Shown: positions 3,462 to 19,259 of the stretch, piece after piece
Position numbering within the stretch: position 1 is the stretch's first letter
How the letters are laid out: every line of letters starts with the position of its first letter
NCBI GenBank assembly: GCA_947631095.1
Contig: CANRJX010000011.1
Coordinates: 1-33,979 of the forward strand
From: an uncultured Wohlfahrtiimonas sp.
GTDB lineage: Bacteria; Pseudomonadota; Gammaproteobacteria; Cardiobacteriales; Wohlfahrtiimonadaceae
DNA: 33,979 bases
Direction: 5' to 3'
The notes under the pieces: generated by a model
Told to the model about the DNA's origin: nothing
Seen by the model: only the letters and a program-made list of their open reading frames with translations
The model's database searches: none
Position numbers and translations under genes: made by a program

Positions 3462-3476
3462 AATTACACCCAATAT

Positions 3477-3498
3477 AAAACATCATATTTGATTTATT
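3477..3498. promoter_or_regulatory. hipBA operator O2, half-conserved copy
   Basis: AAAACATCATA (3477-3487) repeats the left half of O1 exactly 41 bases away, about four helical turns; the right half (TTTGATTTATT) is degenerate. It sits in the hipB leader. Paired operators in phase fit cooperative HipB or HipAB binding. Confidence 0.6.
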
Positions 3499-3513
3499 AT
3501 ATATATAAAAAGC

Positions 3514-3543
3514 AAATAAAACATCATATATGATGTTTTATTT
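3514..3543. promoter_or_regulatory. hipBA operator O1, perfect 30 bp palindrome
   Basis: Each half reads AAATAAAACATCATA, mirrored without mismatch around 3528/3529. It is just upstream of a TATAAT-like -10 element (minus strand, near 3500), so bound HipB would block the promoter. It also lies past the hsdR stop codon and could fold as the hairpin ending the hsd transcript. Confidence 0.7.
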
Positions 3544-10689: not shown

Positions 10690-11685
10690 TTACCCAAGCC
10701 GATCAGCAATCTCCGTTGCTGTTGGGTTGTAATAGATCATTAATGAACGTGTATCTTTGTGCCCTGTCATCTTTGCTAAATCTAATACATCCAATTTTCG
10801 AGCTAATCTTGTACAAGCTTCATGCCTACTATCATGAAAACGTAGATCTTCAATACCCAAATAACGAGTAGCCTTTCTAAAGGTTTGACTAACACTATCA
10901 GAAGTAATATCAAAAACCTCACCTGTATCTCGTGGATTCATTAATTTAAATAACTGTACAGCTCGTTTAGATAGCGGAATATCTCGATTATCACTATTTT
11001 TAGTATCAAAAAGCCTTAAATACTTCTGATCTAAATCGATATGTCGCCAATCAAGCTGCGTGATTTCGCTTTGCCTCATAGCTGTTTCCAACGCAATCAA
11101 AAAAATTAATCCGACCTTCTGCTTTTGTAGTTTTGGTGGTTCTTCGTTAAATTTAAAATACTCAAGCAATTGTTCTTCTTCCCGAAGTGAAACCCTTCGA
11201 TTACGTGGCGGTGGTTCAGGTAAAGACTTTAATTCAGTTAAAGGGTTATGATTCGTCCAATTCCAATCTCGCCTTGCAGTTTCAACCACAGAGCGAATTA
11301 AAGCTAATTCACGGTTTTTAGAAGGATTGGCAATAGGACGCTGATTACGCCACTCAATAATCATTTTCCCTTTCAGCTTCATCAATGGCACTTCTTTTGG
11401 AAAATAATCTTGCTGCATGATTGCTTTAATACGATGAGCTTCGTTCCTTTTACCTTTTTTGGTAGGTGTCACTTCACTCAAATAACGCTTCATGGCATCA
11501 CCTAAAGTCTTATCTTCATCATAATCTTTATCTGCACCTTCAATAATGGCTTTTTCACGCTGCTGAACCCAAATACTAGCTTCTAACTTCGTTGGAAAAG
11601 ACTTGTTTTCATTGTAGGTAATATAGTTATGCATCAAACGAATACGAGCATAGTATTTTTTACCACGTTTATTAATTGATCCCAT
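10690..11685 (-). CDS. int: tyrosine recombinase / integrase
   Basis: A 331-residue phage-type integrase. The chosen ATG at 11685 has GGAGG seven bases upstream; the open frame to 11751 lies within the preceding gene. The N-terminal 55 residues (INKRGKKYYARIRL...) are an arm-binding-like domain and about 60-160 are the core-binding domain. The catalytic residues are complete: R204 (AMRQSEI), K229, H284-D-S-R287, H309 (TGHK) and Y318 or Y319 (MIYYNP). It should catalyse insertion and excision of the surrounding element, plausibly at the ssrA 3' end at 18907. It is nearly 8 kb from that site, which is unusual, so the island may be composite. Its start overlaps the AlpA-like gene by 14 bases. 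Confidence 0.92.
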   Translation of the reverse strand: MGSINKRGKKYYARIRLMHNYITYNENKSFPTKLEASIWVQQREKAIIEGADKDYDEDKTLGDAMKRYLSEVTPTKKGKRNEAHRIKAIMQQDYFPKEVPLMKLKGKMIIEWRNQRPIANPSKNRELALIRSVVETARRDWNWTNHNPLTELKSLPEPPPRNRRVSLREEEQLLEYFKFNEEPPKLQKQKVGLIFLIALETAMRQSEITQLDWRHIDLDQKYLRLFDTKNSDNRDIPLSKRAVQLFKLMNPRDTGEVFDITSDSVSQTFRKATRYLGIEDLRFHDSRHEACTRLARKLDVLDLAKMTGHKDTRSLMIYYNPTATEIADRLG

Positions 11686-11923
11686 ATGGATCCTCCTTAC
11701 GGCTATCAATGAATGCCTGTACTTCACTAGCTTTGTACCGAGGGTAACCATTTTTAGTTAAACGTATAGGTTTTGGAAAGTCTGGCTGGGTCACAATGCG
11801 TTGCTTCACATGTTCTTCAGACATTTTAAAAATTTCTGCCAAATCTTGGACTGTTAATAATGGATCTAAGCGTGTCACAGTTTCTTCTACTACTGTCGTT
11901 GTGGTTGTTGTTACTGTATTCAT
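11672..11923 (-). CDS. AlpA/excisionase-like DNA-binding protein
   Basis: An 83-residue protein with a winged helix-turn-helix of the AlpA/MerR type: LLTVQDLAEIFKMSEEHVKQRI, then FPKPIRLTKNGYPRYKASEVQAFI. The N-terminus has a run of threonines (TVTTTTTT). Placed between the primase-helicase and the integrase, with a 14-base overlap into int, it may be an excisionase (directionality factor) or a regulator of int. Second such protein in this operon. Confidence 0.75.
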   Translation of the reverse strand: MNTVTTTTTTVVEETVTRLDPLLTVQDLAEIFKMSEEHVKQRIVTQPDFPKPIRLTKNGYPRYKASEVQAFIDSRKEDPYGIN

Positions 11924-11927
11924 AATA

Positions 11928-14366
11928 TTATTCCTGGTCTAATTTTTGAAAAACATAAGCTCGTACAATTCTTGAAGCTTTAGTAGCTGTTTTATTCGTA
12001 TAAAAACGAGAATATGTTTCTTTATTTTTGGCAATAAATTTGTATCGGGTACTTGTTGGTAAAAGCTTTTTAACCTCACGTATATCATCTAGCTGGTAGC
12101 GATGTTCAGTTGCTAAAGCATAAAATTGAGTTAAATTAATGGCGATCATTTTAGGATCACATGCGTGATTTACAGGATAGTTTTGTGCAGACAAATTGTC
12201 ATACACATCCCAAAACTGTTCCAACATAGGATGATCTTGTTTAAGTTCTAAATCTCGTTCAAGGGCTATCTGATCAATGTATGTAAACACTTCATTTTTC
12301 ACTGACTGATTAAGTGGCACAATTAAGGATAATGCATCCACTAGAGACAACATCAAACCGTGCGTTAAACCAATGCGACCTTCTTTGATACCTAAATCCA
12401 TAATGCGTTGACGATTAGCTTCAAACGTAGACTGAATAACACGCATCACTTGTAATTCAAGCTTTAATGATGCGATCAAAAATCCTGAAACATCTTCTAC
12501 AGACAATAGTTCTAAGCGACGAGCCTTAACAGCACGCTCTGGTGTATGCCGAGTTTTATCAAAAGCTACCGAAATCATTCGTGATAATAATGCTTCTTGA
12601 TTAAACTTAGAACCCAATGTGATGACTCGATCATTCTGACAAATAATTAATACAGTACGAAACTTAGGTGAGTATGTTTCATTACTCAAATCCTTTTTGG
12701 CCGTCGCTCGTAGTATCCCACCATTGAACGCTGCTTTGAGATTTTCTAAACTGAAACCCTCACACTCAATCATAACAACAGGTAAATTGCCTACCTGAGC
12801 TAATGTCCTCAGATAGTTATTCTCTGTACCTAAATTGGGATTTGCACCTTCATAATCATGGCGACCCAATAAAGACCATAGAAATCTGAGAATCATAGAT
12901 TTGCCAGAAGATGGATCACCTGTTAATTCCAAAAATGGATAAGCCTTATAAACGCTGCGTATTTGTTCAGCGAATAAAGAGCCAAACCAATATGCTAGTA
13001 CAGCTACGCCTTTAACACCAAAGACATCCAAATAATCATCCCACCAATCATTTTGATAATGCATAACAGGATTAAAGTCAGGTAAATGAAAAGTTGTTTT
13101 CACTCGGATATTATTTGGCAACTCGATATATTCATGCTGATTAGCTTTATAAACTACACCTTTATAAACAGCGAAATCCTTAAAGATATACGCACCAAAC
13201 TCTTCGGCATAGCCCATAAAATTTGTTGCTTCAATATTATAAATATTGGTCGTTTTAAGCTTATACAAAGCATCTAGATTTTTAGTCTCACCTGTAAAAG
13301 TAGCGCCTGCAATAATGTTCATCACAGTAGTTTTAAATTCACCTGCGCTACTCAGCTGTTTACTAGTGAGAGCTGCGACATTGCGATTTCTATCTGTGCT
13401 AACTTCTATAAAATACGATAGATCATTACTACCTAACATCTTTTGAGCATATAAAAATGTAAAGGTACAATTGGCAATCTCGATAATTTGATATTCAGAT
13501 TGAAATATAGCTAGAGGATCATGGTTTTCGCTTTCCTTTTGCTTCTCATCACGTTTTGCCCAATAGGTTTTATTATCAAATTCAAATATGAATTGATTCA
13601 CATTATTGTGTTCATGAATCAAATACGCTTTTTTTAATACAGATTCAGCCATCAATAATGAACCGTTATACAAATACTCTTCAATATCTTCAGGCTTCAA
13701 AGCATTTTTCTTATGCTTATCATTCCAAGTATCTTCATCATTGGTTATTGCAACAGAAATAGTTTTAAAGCCTATTGCCTTACACTTTTCAATCCAAGAC
13801 TTGACTACCTTCAACCCTCTTTTATCAGAATTCAATGCAATCACAATCGCTAAATTTGGCTTCAATTGAAAAATATCAGTTAAAGTTTGTTCAGGAAAGT
13901 TATTGGCACTCATCGCACTTATAGCTGGAATGTCATGTTCCATTAATGCGAGCGCATCAAATATACCTTCAGCAATATATATCTGATTAATTTTAGCGAC
14001 ATCTAATCGATCATACTGCCATGCTAATCCCTTATAGGAATAACCAGATTTAAAACGAGATTTTTTACCAATTTTTTCTATATCCCCAATAAATTGTTCC
14101 CAATACCCATCATTTGGCATAGTGAAACGAATTGTTGGTATAGAAGCAGTAGTGGTATAATCGTAAAAGGTTTCTTGTGAGAATCCTGCATATCGTGTGT
14201 AGTCAAGGCCGCACTCCTCAGAAAAGTAAGCCTTGGCTATTGCACGATCATCTCCTTGAACTCCTTCCAAACTCTGTTCTAAATCTACATTCCCATCACT
14301 TCGATCTAGCACTTCTAATTCTTGAATCGCATCAGAACTCTGTGGCCGACTCATTAACTTATTCAT
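11928..14366 (-). CDS. TOPRIM primase-helicase of a satellite-like element
   Basis: An 812-residue replication protein. A TOPRIM domain at about 125-215 has the glutamate in IYIAEGIFDALAL (E133) and a DxD-type segment reading NSDKRG (N179, D181), so the first aspartate is asparagine; DTWND near 212 completes the fold. The C-terminal half is a P-loop helicase: Walker A GDPSSGKS (483-490) and a Walker B-like segment VVMIECEG. This is the layout of replication proteins of P4-like and PICI-like satellites, although no zinc-binding domain is visible at the N-terminus. AAAAGGAG is well placed before the ATG, adjoining a 27-base palindrome. It is second in the minus-strand operon, four bases ahead of the second AlpA-like gene. 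Confidence 0.8.
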   Translation of the reverse strand: MNKLMSRPQSSDAIQELEVLDRSDGNVDLEQSLEGVQGDDRAIAKAYFSEECGLDYTRYAGFSQETFYDYTTTASIPTIRFTMPNDGYWEQFIGDIEKIGKKSRFKSGYSYKGLAWQYDRLDVAKINQIYIAEGIFDALALMEHDIPAISAMSANNFPEQTLTDIFQLKPNLAIVIALNSDKRGLKVVKSWIEKCKAIGFKTISVAITNDEDTWNDKHKKNALKPEDIEEYLYNGSLLMAESVLKKAYLIHEHNNVNQFIFEFDNKTYWAKRDEKQKESENHDPLAIFQSEYQIIEIANCTFTFLYAQKMLGSNDLSYFIEVSTDRNRNVAALTSKQLSSAGEFKTTVMNIIAGATFTGETKNLDALYKLKTTNIYNIEATNFMGYAEEFGAYIFKDFAVYKGVVYKANQHEYIELPNNIRVKTTFHLPDFNPVMHYQNDWWDDYLDVFGVKGVAVLAYWFGSLFAEQIRSVYKAYPFLELTGDPSSGKSMILRFLWSLLGRHDYEGANPNLGTENNYLRTLAQVGNLPVVMIECEGFSLENLKAAFNGGILRATAKKDLSNETYSPKFRTVLIICQNDRVITLGSKFNQEALLSRMISVAFDKTRHTPERAVKARRLELLSVEDVSGFLIASLKLELQVMRVIQSTFEANRQRIMDLGIKEGRIGLTHGLMLSLVDALSLIVPLNQSVKNEVFTYIDQIALERDLELKQDHPMLEQFWDVYDNLSAQNYPVNHACDPKMIAINLTQFYALATEHRYQLDDIREVKKLLPTSTRYKFIAKNKETYSRFYTNKTATKASRIVRAYVFQKLDQE

Positions 14367-14377
14367 TCAAACTCCTT

Positions 14378-14404
14378 TTAAAAGTTTCGCTGCGAAACTT
14401 TTAA
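14378..14404. promoter_or_regulatory. 27-base perfect inverted repeat between two satellite genes
   Basis: Stem AAAAGTTTCGC mirrored around a single base (14391) and extended by two A/T pairs on each side. It covers the stop codon of the AlpA-like gene and ends one base from the AAAAGGAG ribosome site of the primase-helicase. As RNA it would be a strong hairpin that could attenuate transcription or gate primase translation; as DNA it could be an operator. Confidence 0.5.
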
Positions 14405-14640
14405 TCTTCAACTTTAGATATATCTGTTGTTAATTCTTGAGAGCAACTATCTATATAATTCAATACATCACTTTTCCTCCATCTACTTGCTTGCCCTCCA
14501 ATTCTTAGAGGCTTAGGAAACCCATTTTGATTAATAGCGTTATATAGCGCACCATTACTTTTAAAGCCTAATAAGTCTTTCACTTGATCCCTTGTCCACA
14601 AAATATAAGCATCACCTACTTCAATATTTTTCTTTTCCAT
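14401..14640 (-). CDS. AlpA family transcriptional regulator
   Basis: A 79-residue AlpA-type protein: a helix-turn-helix (ILWTRDQVKDLLGFKSNGALYNAI) followed by the family signature FPKPLRIGGQASRWRKSDVLNYI. AlpA proteins activate excision or replication genes of cryptic elements and satellites. First gene of the minus-strand operon alpA, primase-helicase, second AlpA-like gene, int; AAGAGGT precedes the ATG. It is transcribed away from the regulatory region 14689-14918 and may bind there. Confidence 0.85.
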   Translation of the reverse strand: MEKKNIEVGDAYILWTRDQVKDLLGFKSNGALYNAINQNGFPKPLRIGGQASRWRKSDVLNYIDSCSQELTTDISKVED

Positions 14641-16108: not shown

Positions 16109-16618
16109 GTGACAGAATTAAGTAGATTTATAGACCCTGAAAATTTTCAAGAAGCCATGGAAGCTGTTGCCAGTGATTCATTTAATGATGCATTTTTATC
16201 TCACTCATTCATTGATCACTTTAAAAGTTTAGAACCCAAAGAACAGAAATCCTTAAATCGTAATAACCTAAACTTATTATTACCTGTGACATTAAAACTA
16301 ATGGACAAAGGCTTTTTTAAAACAGATATTCACCGATTCTACGTTAAACGGTACTGGAGCAGTAATTCATACCTTACATTCAACAGAAGGCTATCTACAG
16401 ACCTTAAAGCAACTTCACCACGAATGACAAAACCTTCTCCCAAGAAAGAAATATCAAAAGAAGAACATGAGCCTATTAAAATAGGTGATGAACATCCCAA
16501 TCAATCTGTATCTTCTGGCTTCATCGGTGGTTCTCTTGAAAATACAAGAAAAAAGCTAAAGGCACTTTCTGAAAAACGTGAAGAAAGACAAAAACTAAAG
16601 CAACAGAATTTAGACTAA
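16109..16618 (+). CDS. hypothetical protein with charged C-terminal coiled coil
   Basis: A 169-residue protein with a GTG start (16109). The first 100 residues are helical (RFIDPENFQEAMEAVASDSF ...), followed by a proline- and lysine-rich linker and a basic helical tail (NTRKKLKALSEKREERQKLK) that could form a coiled coil or contact nucleic acid. A four-codon ATG reading frame just upstream ends in TGA overlapping the GTG, which may help re-initiation. No recognised domain. It lies beside the candidate origin, with a strong terminator after it, so an accessory replication or mobilisation role is possible but only inferred. Confidence 0.55.
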   Translation: MTELSRFIDPENFQEAMEAVASDSFNDAFLSHSFIDHFKSLEPKEQKSLNRNNLNLLLPVTLKLMDKGFFKTDIHRFYVKRYWSSNSYLTFNRRLSTDLKATSPRMTKPSPKKEISKEEHEPIKIGDEHPNQSVSSGFIGGSLENTRKKLKALSEKREERQKLKQQNLD

Positions 16619-16986: not shown

Positions 16987-17275
16987 TAAAAAGAAGTAAT
17001 TTAAGTAACCTTTTTACTTAATTTCATCAAAACCATTGCTATAGCTATCTTTTAACAAAAAATAAAAGAGTAACTTTTAAGTAATAATAAGTAATATTAG
17101 ACTACTTATTTATTTAACCTATTGTTTTTATTAACCCTATATATTACTTTTTAAAGAGTAATTTAATTACTTCTAGATTACTTAAAAATTACTTTTTCAC
17201 ATCTGGTATAAATACTTAAATAACAATTAGTTATATAAATACTTTCTATAAAGTTACTCAAATTACTTCTTTTTA
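16987..17275. repeat. inverted array of AGTAAY repeats, candidate replication origin
   Basis: At least 12 copies of AGTAAY (or its complement) lie within 16995-17267. Forward copies start at 16995, 17004, 17069, 17080, 17090 and 17157; reverse copies at 17143, 17166, 17177, 17188, 17253 and 17262. Five pairs mirror each other around one axis near 17131, four of them exactly and one with a one-base offset. Within clusters the spacing is 9-11 bases, one helical turn. The outer arms (16987-17012 and 17250-17275) match at about 24 of 26 positions as inverted repeats. Iteron clusters like this are typical of origins bound by an element's replication protein. The rest of the gap (16910-17534) has only the repeat at 17347-17406 and an 8 bp inverted repeat (AATCATCA/TGATGATT) ahead of the HNH gene. 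Confidence 0.6.
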
Positions 17276-17346: not shown

Positions 17347-17406
17347 TTTTTGTTTTTCTAACGATTTTTCTATGAAAAATCATGTCTTCTATTTGGTGCT
17401 GATCAA
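17347..17406 (+). repeat. direct repeat, left copy, flanking the HNH gene
   Basis: The first 39 bases differ from 18758-18796 at one position only; about 10 diverged bases follow, then GTGCTGATCAA in both copies. Inside is a perfect hairpin, GATTTTTC-TAT-GAAAAATC (17363-17381). The pair encloses the HNH gene and about 250 bases around it. Confidence 0.8.
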
Positions 17407-17534
17407 CCACAATACTATATGCTACAAAATCGGATATGTTAGACTTAGCGAAAATGATTAATCATCACACTACTCGCTCATTGATGATTTATTGCAAGCC
17501 AACAACAAAGATTACAAATAGATTAGGATAAAAA

Positions 17535-18644
17535 ATGAATAATAAAAATTGTACTTTATGCAATAATCCCCTTACACAAAAAAATGACTCAAAAGAGCAT
17601 ATCATCCCTAATTCTATTGGAGGGTTTAAAACTATAAAAGGTTTTATCTGTAGAGATTGCAATAGCCAAACAGGAGATGAATGGGATAATGAATTGGCTA
17701 AACAATTTAATTTATTCAATAATTGGTTCGATATCAAAAAAGATAGAGGAGCTGTACCACCTGAAAATATCCAATCAATTGATGGTGAATTATTAAAATT
17801 ATATCCAGACGGAAAAATTCAACATCGCCATCCTAAAATAGATATCGATGAAAATGAAGATGGATCCTTTAAAATCTCAATGATGACTAGAGATATAAAA
17901 GAAGCCAATCAAAAAATCAAAGAGCTCAAAAGAAAATTCCCTAATCTGGATGTGGAAGAGGCAATATCGAAAGTCAAATCTTCTAAAATAGACACACCTA
18001 TAATTGAAATTAATGCTCAATTTGGTCAGAATTATGCTTGGAAATCAATTATCAAAATAGCCCTAGCATTTACCAAAAGCTTAAATATTGATACCACAAA
18101 ATGTTATACGGCGCTGAACGCACTAAAAAATGAGACATCATGCGACACTATATATTATGAAAGCGATTTGTTGCTAAACCGCCCATCAGATAAAGTATTT
18201 CATTTAATTCATATTCAAGGGAATCCTGAAACTAATCAATTGATTGGATATGTTGAGCTTTACGGATTTCATAGAACTTTAATGATCTTAAATGATGCTT
18301 ATACAGGCGATCCCATCTCAAAAACTTACGCCTTCGACCCATCAACATCAGAGGAATTAAATATTAATGTTGAAATTTCATTCACAAATAGTGAAATAAT
18401 TCAATTCATTAAGAAACCATATAACCATACGGAACTGCAAAATGCTCTTGGTAAAGTTATTGAAATATATCAGAAAAGAAGCCAGCAAAAAGAATTGGAT
18501 ATCACAATCCAAGAGGCAATCGAATATGCTTTCAACAATTGTGGGGCTAAAGAAGGAGAAATATTACAAGAACATCATACTAAAAAAATTACAGAATTGG
18601 TTTTAGAAAAAATACAACCTTTTATCATCAAGCACATCAGATAA
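17535..18644 (+). CDS. HNH endonuclease-domain protein
   Basis: A 369-residue protein. The N-terminus is an HNH/zinc module of the HNH_5 type: CxxC at C6-C9, SKEHIIPNSIGG with H22, and CxxC at C39-C42 in ICRDCNSQTG. The remaining 300 residues match no family I recognise: a lysine-rich helical part (about 120-150) followed by a mixed fold to the C-terminus, which might be the sensor or target-binding part. AGGA lies seven bases ahead of the ATG. It stands alone between two imperfect direct repeats next to ssrA, without a methyltransferase, as many single-gene nuclease defence cargoes do. Nuclease activity is likely; the target is unknown. Confidence 0.75.
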   Translation: MNNKNCTLCNNPLTQKNDSKEHIIPNSIGGFKTIKGFICRDCNSQTGDEWDNELAKQFNLFNNWFDIKKDRGAVPPENIQSIDGELLKLYPDGKIQHRHPKIDIDENEDGSFKISMMTRDIKEANQKIKELKRKFPNLDVEEAISKVKSSKIDTPIIEINAQFGQNYAWKSIIKIALAFTKSLNIDTTKCYTALNALKNETSCDTIYYESDLLLNRPSDKVFHLIHIQGNPETNQLIGYVELYGFHRTLMILNDAYTGDPISKTYAFDPSTSEELNINVEISFTNSEIIQFIKKPYNHTELQNALGKVIEIYQKRSQQKELDITIQEAIEYAFNNCGAKEGEILQEHHTKKITELVLEKIQPFIIKHIR

Positions 18645-18743: not shown

Positions 18744-18768
18744 AAAGGCTTTTAGCTTTTTTGTTTTT
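18744..18768 (+). terminator. probable terminator of the HNH gene
   Basis: AAAGGC and GCTTTT pair over 6 bp (one G-T) with a TTTTA loop and are followed by a long T-run that is also the start of the right direct repeat. Confidence 0.45.
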
Positions 18769-18816
18769 CCAACGATTTTTCTATGAAAAATCATGTGTTT
18801 TTATAGTGCTGATCAA
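18758..18816 (+). repeat. direct repeat, right copy, flanking the HNH gene
   Basis: Second copy of the repeat at 17347-17406, with the same inner hairpin (18774-18792) and the GTGCTGATCAA end. It lies 91 bases from the tmRNA 3' end. Confidence 0.8.
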
Positions 18817-18906: not shown

Positions 18907-19259
18907 TGGTGGAGGCGGCGGGATTTGAACCCGCGTCCGAAAACTATCCATCCTTGGTACTACATGTTTAGCCGTATCTTTAATTTAACTGGTTTTAATC
19001 CGACCGGCAGGACAAAACTCAGCTGTTCCAGTAAATTTCGAGAGGGAGCACCTGGACTTACATCTCTCTAGATCGTTTAAGTTGACTGAAATTAGAATCG
19101 AACGAACACAATCTTAATTTCAGTTAGCTGGCTTAAGCAGCTAAAGCGTAGTTATTATCGTTTGCAATTATAACTGATTGCCGCGTTTTTACGAGACTCT
19201 CGACCTTCTCGACATGCACCTCAAACTTCAACATCCCCGTCGAATCCAAGAACGCCCCC
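18907..19259 (-). ncRNA. ssrA: tmRNA (transfer-messenger RNA)
   Basis: tmRNA rescues ribosomes stalled on broken mRNAs and tags the unfinished protein for degradation. The 353-base gene has the tRNA-like ends: 5' GGGGGCG pairs with CGCCUCC before an encoded ACCA, and the T-arm reads GGGTTCAAATCCC. The 5' part contains the conserved GATTCGACGGGGAT. The tag reading frame (19133-19165) encodes ANDNNYALAA followed by TAA, close to the ANDENYALAA tag of many gammaproteobacteria. The 3' end is a frequent integration site, and accessory DNA starts right after it here. Confidence 0.96.

Follow-up and report, generated by a model that had tools for sequence, protein, structure and literature searches.

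A two-fold symmetric iteron array as the probable replication origin of a satellite-like element at ssrA in Wohlfahrtiimonas

The element at ssrA

The window, the whole 33,979-nt stretch of DNA analysed here, is one entire contig of a Wohlfahrtiimonas MAG. It carries the gene for tmRNA, ssrA (18907–19259, minus strand), the 3' end of which, at 18907, is the attachment site of an integrated element. The element is placed to the left of ssrA on the basis of a relative: in W. larvae (L040:1-12301), two elements lie in tandem at the ssrA end, and a second copy of that end, at L040:4365-4382, separates them. From left to right, the element encodes HipA, a type I restriction system, a tyrosine integrase (10690–11751, minus strand), a small AlpA/excisionase-like HTH protein adjoining the primase (11672–11923, minus strand), a primase-helicase assigned to PHROG 1139 (11928–14366, minus strand), an AlpA-like regulator (14401–14640, minus strand), and small uncharacterised genes, followed by an array of short repeats (16987–17275, no strand) and an HNH endonuclease gene (17535–18644, plus strand), which is cargo between the array and the attachment site. 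Upstream of the array is the gene for a 169-aa protein without assigned function (16109–16618, plus strand), and the array itself, flanked by divergent genes, is close to the element's att end. The element is predicted to be satellite-like because small genes fill the position beside the array where related prophages have portal and capsid genes. A helper portal was not found in the genome to which the window belongs (81% complete).

Past the array, an integrase C-terminus remnant (17426–17533, plus strand) directly precedes the HNH cargo gene. In W. larvae, a similar fragment (L040:6841-6912) directly precedes an ORF at L040:6918, and a further fragment is present at L045:14173-14265, a pattern that would fit repeated acquisition of cargo at the 3' end of int. 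The segment with the HNH gene and this remnant is bordered by a 60-bp direct repeat (17347–17406 and 18758–18816, 90% identical), which contains a terminator-like hairpin. Farther left, a 532-aa protein encoded beside hipA (323–1921), possibly a defence or cargo gene product, has a predicted membrane-like C-terminus and does not clearly match any family. An imperfect palindrome of 67 bp (3475–3541; 86% AT, 75% self-complementary) lies between hsdR and the gene for HipA's HTH partner.

Structure of the array

The array is a two-fold symmetric set of iterons arranged about an axis at 17131. Within 273 bases there are 12 copies of AGTAAY, starting at 16995, 17004, 17069, 17080, and 17090 on the left side (all plus strand) and at 17143 (minus), 17157 (plus), and 17166, 17177, 17188, 17253, and 17262 (all minus) on the right side. 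These form a left outer pair (AGTAAT and AGTAAC with a 9-bp step; 16995–17009, plus strand), a left inner trio (17069–17095, plus strand), a right inner trio (17166–17193, minus strand) that mirrors 17069–17095, and a right outer pair (17253–17267, minus strand) that mirrors 16995–17009, in addition to two off-register iterons, at 17143–17148 (minus strand) and, facing outward, at 17157–17162 (plus strand). Each half therefore consists of an outer pair with a 9-bp step, separated by ~65 bp (six helical turns) from a trio at 10–11-bp steps, with arm offsets from the respective end of 0, 9, 74, 85, and 95 (left) and 0, 9, 74, 85, and 96 (right). The two halves oppose each other across an AT-rich central spacer (17096–17142, ~80% AT), for which a role as the melting region is proposed.

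The original prediction for this locus described at least 12 AGTAAY copies in 273 bases, five pairs mirrored about an axis near 17131, an in-cluster spacing of 9–11 bases, and outer 26-base arms matching as inverted repeats, all of which were recovered: besides the 12 copies located, the five mirrored pairs have start and end positions summing to 34262 (four pairs) or 34261 (one pair), the step inside the clusters is 9–11 bp, and the end arms (16987–17012 and 17250–17275) are 92% complementary across 26 nt. It had also suggested shuffling the surrounding 625-bp gap, and 3000 dinucleotide-preserving shuffles of that gap never gave more than six AGTAAY copies (observed, 12) or more than two mirrored pairs (observed, five). 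When compared with its own reverse complement, the 289-bp block matches at 66% (E = 3.7e-7), and its ungapped self-complementarity of 156/289 lies above that of 500 shuffled sequences (124.7 ± 4.3; maximum, 142). There is no second AGTAAY cluster in the window, with every other separate 290-bp stretch holding at most three copies. The array is a non-random feature.

Two other interpretations of the repeats were considered and set aside. A MITE-like noncoding transposon, prompted by the terminal inverted repeats, was rejected on the basis of other loci (see below), which differ in their end sequences and share the internal geometry and a fixed gene context. A conjugative oriT, with the 169-aa protein in the role of a TraK-like protein, was rejected with no relaxase seen. 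In alignments, the 169-aa protein shares 14–23% identity with the upstream proteins of other satellites.

The primase-helicase as candidate initiator

An AlphaFold model of the 812-aa primase-helicase (mean pLDDT, 84) was used for structural comparison. Residues 39–245 match DnaG-type Toprim domains (Z about 15), and residues 258–811 have the SCCmec Cch helicase as nearest match (Z 24.0; 446 residues) and also match the SaPIbov1 Rep initiator (Z 22.1; 431 residues). The last 100 residues contain a predicted winged-helix-like fold (~713–808); as an isolated domain, the C-terminus has a weak match to Cch (Z 4.8), and a Foldseek search with the model of this isolated domain returned no significant fold match. 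Based on the full model, the protein is predicted to have the fold of the origin-binding initiator helicases, with an AAA+ helicase joined to a DnaG-type Toprim domain and a C-terminal winged-helix-like domain. In SaPIs, it is the C-terminal domain by which Rep helicases are reported to recognise iterons just 3' of their own gene, the protein apparently acting as two hexamers (PMC7581432). We infer that the array is recognised by the primase-helicase at 11928–14366, as originally proposed. Further, identity to the winged helix of the window is ~34–37% in phages with AGTAAY-type arrays versus 25–26% in those with GTTACG or GGAACA types, at similar identity of the core, with one exception (42%) and with values uncorrected for phylogeny, which is suggestive of a link between the iteron word and the winged-helix sequence.

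Related arrays in satellites and prophages

Mirror arrays of ~270–315 bp with other words adjoin relatives of the primase in Wohlfahrtiimonas satellites, in Wohlfahrtiimonas-family P2-like prophages, and in Providencia and Pseudomonas prophages. The words found across these loci include AGTAAY, TGTAAY, GTTACG, GGAACA, TATGAC, GTGATT, and others, and the same steps recur amongst them (9, then 64–66 or 74–78, then 10–11). A second array-bearing element with a different word is present in the same genome at a tRNA-Leu gene (L044), and elements of other Wohlfahrtiimonas also possess arrays with different words, the arrays of these elements measuring ~255–310 bp. Mirror symmetry lies above all shuffles in many of the related arrays, though not in every one. 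Searched directly against phage records, the array DNA had no match. The position of the array differs between groups, starting ~20–30 bp past the portal gene Q in the Wohlfahrtiimonas-family P2-like prophages and 150–200 bp past the primase gene in Providencia and one Pseudomonas group; in Wohlfahrtiimonas, the distance to att is 0.2–1.6 kb.

In P2, cos is located just after the portal gene Q, and the arrays of the Wohlfahrtiimonas-family prophages occupy this same position. The arrays beside portal genes at first favoured a packaging site (cos/pac), which a P2-like helper's small terminase would bind and which the satellite would have copied for its own packaging. A canonical P2-type cos was not found in these prophages, in keeping with such a role, and no P2-type cos core (GGCGAGGCGGGG-like) occurs within two mismatches in the window or the Wohlfahrtiimonas array regions. 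This reading was dropped on the evidence of four Providencia P2-like loci, in which a P2-type cos (GGGCGAGGCGGGG) is found beside Q, apart from the array, which lies ~190 bp past the primase. A cos-like site also lies apart from the array in L141 and L081, and the satellite array in G002 (TGTAAY, opposite polarity) differs in both word and polarity from that of the co-resident P2-like prophage, and is thus no copy of it. Additionally, nearly all of the GGAACA arrays from viral genomes (see below) hug the primase and not Q. With these observations a packaging function for the array is highly improbable.

The left of the two tandem W. larvae elements retains only the right half of the array, adjoining a TonB-dependent siderophore receptor gene, and this half array may be either a naturally single-armed origin or a relic. 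The array in the window might likewise be an origin that was formerly functional and is now a relic, as the loss of half the array in this relative, the integrase remnant adjoining the array, and the length of the window primase would suggest, the latter being without the N-terminal zinc-finger part of its relatives (870–880 aa). However, ten of the ten arm iterons are intact and in register, and the primase frame is open with the Toprim domain and helicase core conserved, making decay of the origin an unlikely explanation.

Array geometry in viral genomes

A replication origin read by the primase-helicase was further explored in IMG/VR, which was scanned by the outer geometry alone with three words and yielded 140 arrays (RTTACA, 58 loci; AGTAAY, 35; GGAACA, 47). 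In the GGAACA set, the primase 3' end is 151–161 bp from the array at 44 of 47 loci. A full-length PHROG 1139 primase is present in 27 of the 35 AGTAAY records, and three of the eight records without a primase are short fragments (~8 kb at most). The 27 primase-bearing records have exactly one array each and no match to the reversed AGTAAY pattern. In the AGTAAY set, sites beyond those specified in the query concentrate at |38|, |49|, |60|, and outward |29| relative to the axis, which are the offsets seen in the window. In 25 of the 27 records, the prophage has the array toward one end and the primase 3' end toward the other, an arrangement that on circular DNA brings them face to face across the att junction; the remaining two have the array directly 3' of the primase. 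The window, in which the att junction likewise separates the array from the primase 3' end, fits the arrangement of the 25 records.

The expectation that the array travels with the primase largely holds in these phages and satellites, as the AGTAAY and GGAACA sets show, but does not extend to more distant relatives of the primase (Pseudomonas, Xanthomonas, and Stenotrophomonas), where none of 47 genomes has an AGTAAY array, and eight Pseudomonas P2-like loci have no array between portal Q and the primase. The array is either not universal amongst primase relatives or beyond detection in those without one. For 32 of the 58 RTTACA-type loci, a PHROG 1139 primase was not found in the locus or the searched records, and the RTTACA arrays without the primase (among L148–L204) have spans of 259–287 bp and occur in phage contigs.

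A scan with a shorter gap (130–160), planned as a negative control, returned 46 loci. Mirrored TTACA/TGTAA arrays of shorter span (159–188 bp; L287–L330) are found near replication genes, and ten large genes were sampled, nine beside shorter-gap arrays and one beside a normal-gap array, nine of which encode VapE, DUF5906, D5, or Prim-Pol type replication proteins and one DnaB. This suggests that shorter-span mirrored arrays form a wider class of such origins.

Comparison with known origins

As has been reported previously, PICI origins are defined by two opposed iteron sets that flank an AT-rich region, and for EcCICFT073, an E. coli phage satellite, a rep-ori plasmid replicates while a rep mutant does not (PMC6092414). 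The EcCICFT073 origin was read from the CFT073 record, in the intergenic sequence that follows the 3' end of the gene annotated as DNA primase, where TCTACC sites occur at 0, 9, 77, 88, and 97 from the left end and at 0, 9, 77, and 88 from the right end, an agreement with the arm offsets of the window to within 3 bp. Similarly, the annotated type-1 repeats of P4 ori1 (9406, 9396, 9331, 9320, and 9310) correspond to offsets of 0, 10, 75, 86, and 96. Both of these spacing matches arose outside any query.

PICI and SaPI origins resemble the array in having opposed sets of short iterons around an AT-rich centre and in having an SF3/AAA+ helicase as initiator, as proposed for the window. They differ in several respects: the EcCICFT073 word is TCTACC in place of AGTAAY and its span is 222 in place of 273, the window having the wider central gap; the PICI origin is immediately 3' of rep/pri, an arrangement found in the Providencia and Pseudomonas relatives, whereas the array in the window is on the 5' side of the primase, ~2.6 kb away; the proposed initiator, unlike those of PICIs and SaPIs, has a DnaG-type Toprim primase; and no defined PICI gene set is apparent in the window element, with int, an AlpA-like gene, and the primase-helicase present on a contig that ends within the element. 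By its spacing, P4 ori1 is one arm of the window array, and P4 also has a fused primase-helicase as initiator and 9-bp-step pairs in crr. In contrast, the P4 type-1 repeat differs in sequence from AGTAAY, and P4 combines a single-arm ori1 with a separate crr (two 120-bp direct repeats) and has no annotated two-fold symmetric array; a P4-style separate crr was not seen as an AGTAAY cluster elsewhere in the window. Plasmid iteron origins and the RepA_N origin of the Vibrio PLE (PMC7145576) share with the array short repeats and an element-encoded initiator, but they have direct or semi-palindromic direct repeats and non-helicase initiators as opposed to mirrored repeats and a proposed helicase. 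The two-fold symmetry, which had been predicted to set this array apart from most iteron origins, does so for the direct-repeat origins of plasmids; it is not unusual in itself, as it defines the origins of PICIs.

The match to a tested replication origin also bears on whether a small HTH or ribbon-helix-helix protein binds the array, as an operator, partition site, or set of integrase/excisionase arm sites. Short sites at helical spacing would suit such proteins too, the element encodes AlpA-like proteins, and the location near the att end between divergent genes would be appropriate. However, the arrays track the primase and Q and not att, those of Providencia and Pseudomonas are beside the primase and far from int, and the arrays are 270–315 bp long and, in Wohlfahrtiimonas, 0.2–1.6 kb from att. 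There is very little probability of any of these roles.

Proposed function

The array is very probably the replication origin of the satellite-like element integrated at ssrA, a conclusion that draws on sequence and model comparisons. The original prediction of an origin is supported by the recurrence of arrays with the primase family, the initiator-helicase fold, and the arm spacing of the tested PICI origin. In the proposed mechanism, the C-terminal winged-helix-like domain of the primase-helicase would contact the iterons in both arms, and each arm would receive one AAA+ helicase ring; the AT-rich centre would melt, and the two opposed rings would start bidirectional replication of the excised circle, primed by the Toprim domain. 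Excision would join the array and the primase 3' end, with the cargo between them, as in related P2-like prophages, because the integrated map puts the two on opposite sides of the att junction. Because the contig stops before the far end of the element, the route from the array through att to the primase cannot be completed.

The two-fold symmetry is the known layout of PICI-type origins. What appears to be new is the presence of the array on P2-like prophages and satellites with this primase-helicase, outside of the PICIs, and the nearly fixed arm spacing common to the tested PICI origin and P4 ori1. The balance tips slightly toward one sequence-independent half-origin module (0, 9–10, ~75, 86, and 96 bp) set by the loading geometry of Rep-like helicases, of which P4 ori1 would have one arm and the PICIs, P2-like phages, and satellites two mirrored arms, with the word varying with the winged helix and the spacing remaining fixed. 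Near-constant arm spacing across unrelated words offers a testable prediction on the loading of two opposed helicase rings, and the shared spacing ties P4, PICI, and P2-like origins together. Further, the arm geometry provides a search pattern for phage and satellite origins that lack annotation.

Several arrays were also encountered in other settings. In Pseudomonas saxonica, an element already bearing a GGAACA mirror array after its primase is adjoined by a second array, with 11 GTTACA copies in 85 bp (L110:14043-14128). Two further Pseudomonas loci (L121:5479-5770 and L130:5039-5330) have strong GGTAAT mirror arrays with a span of 274, located a few kb from primase fragments and outside any obvious prophage, and these are possibly remnants.
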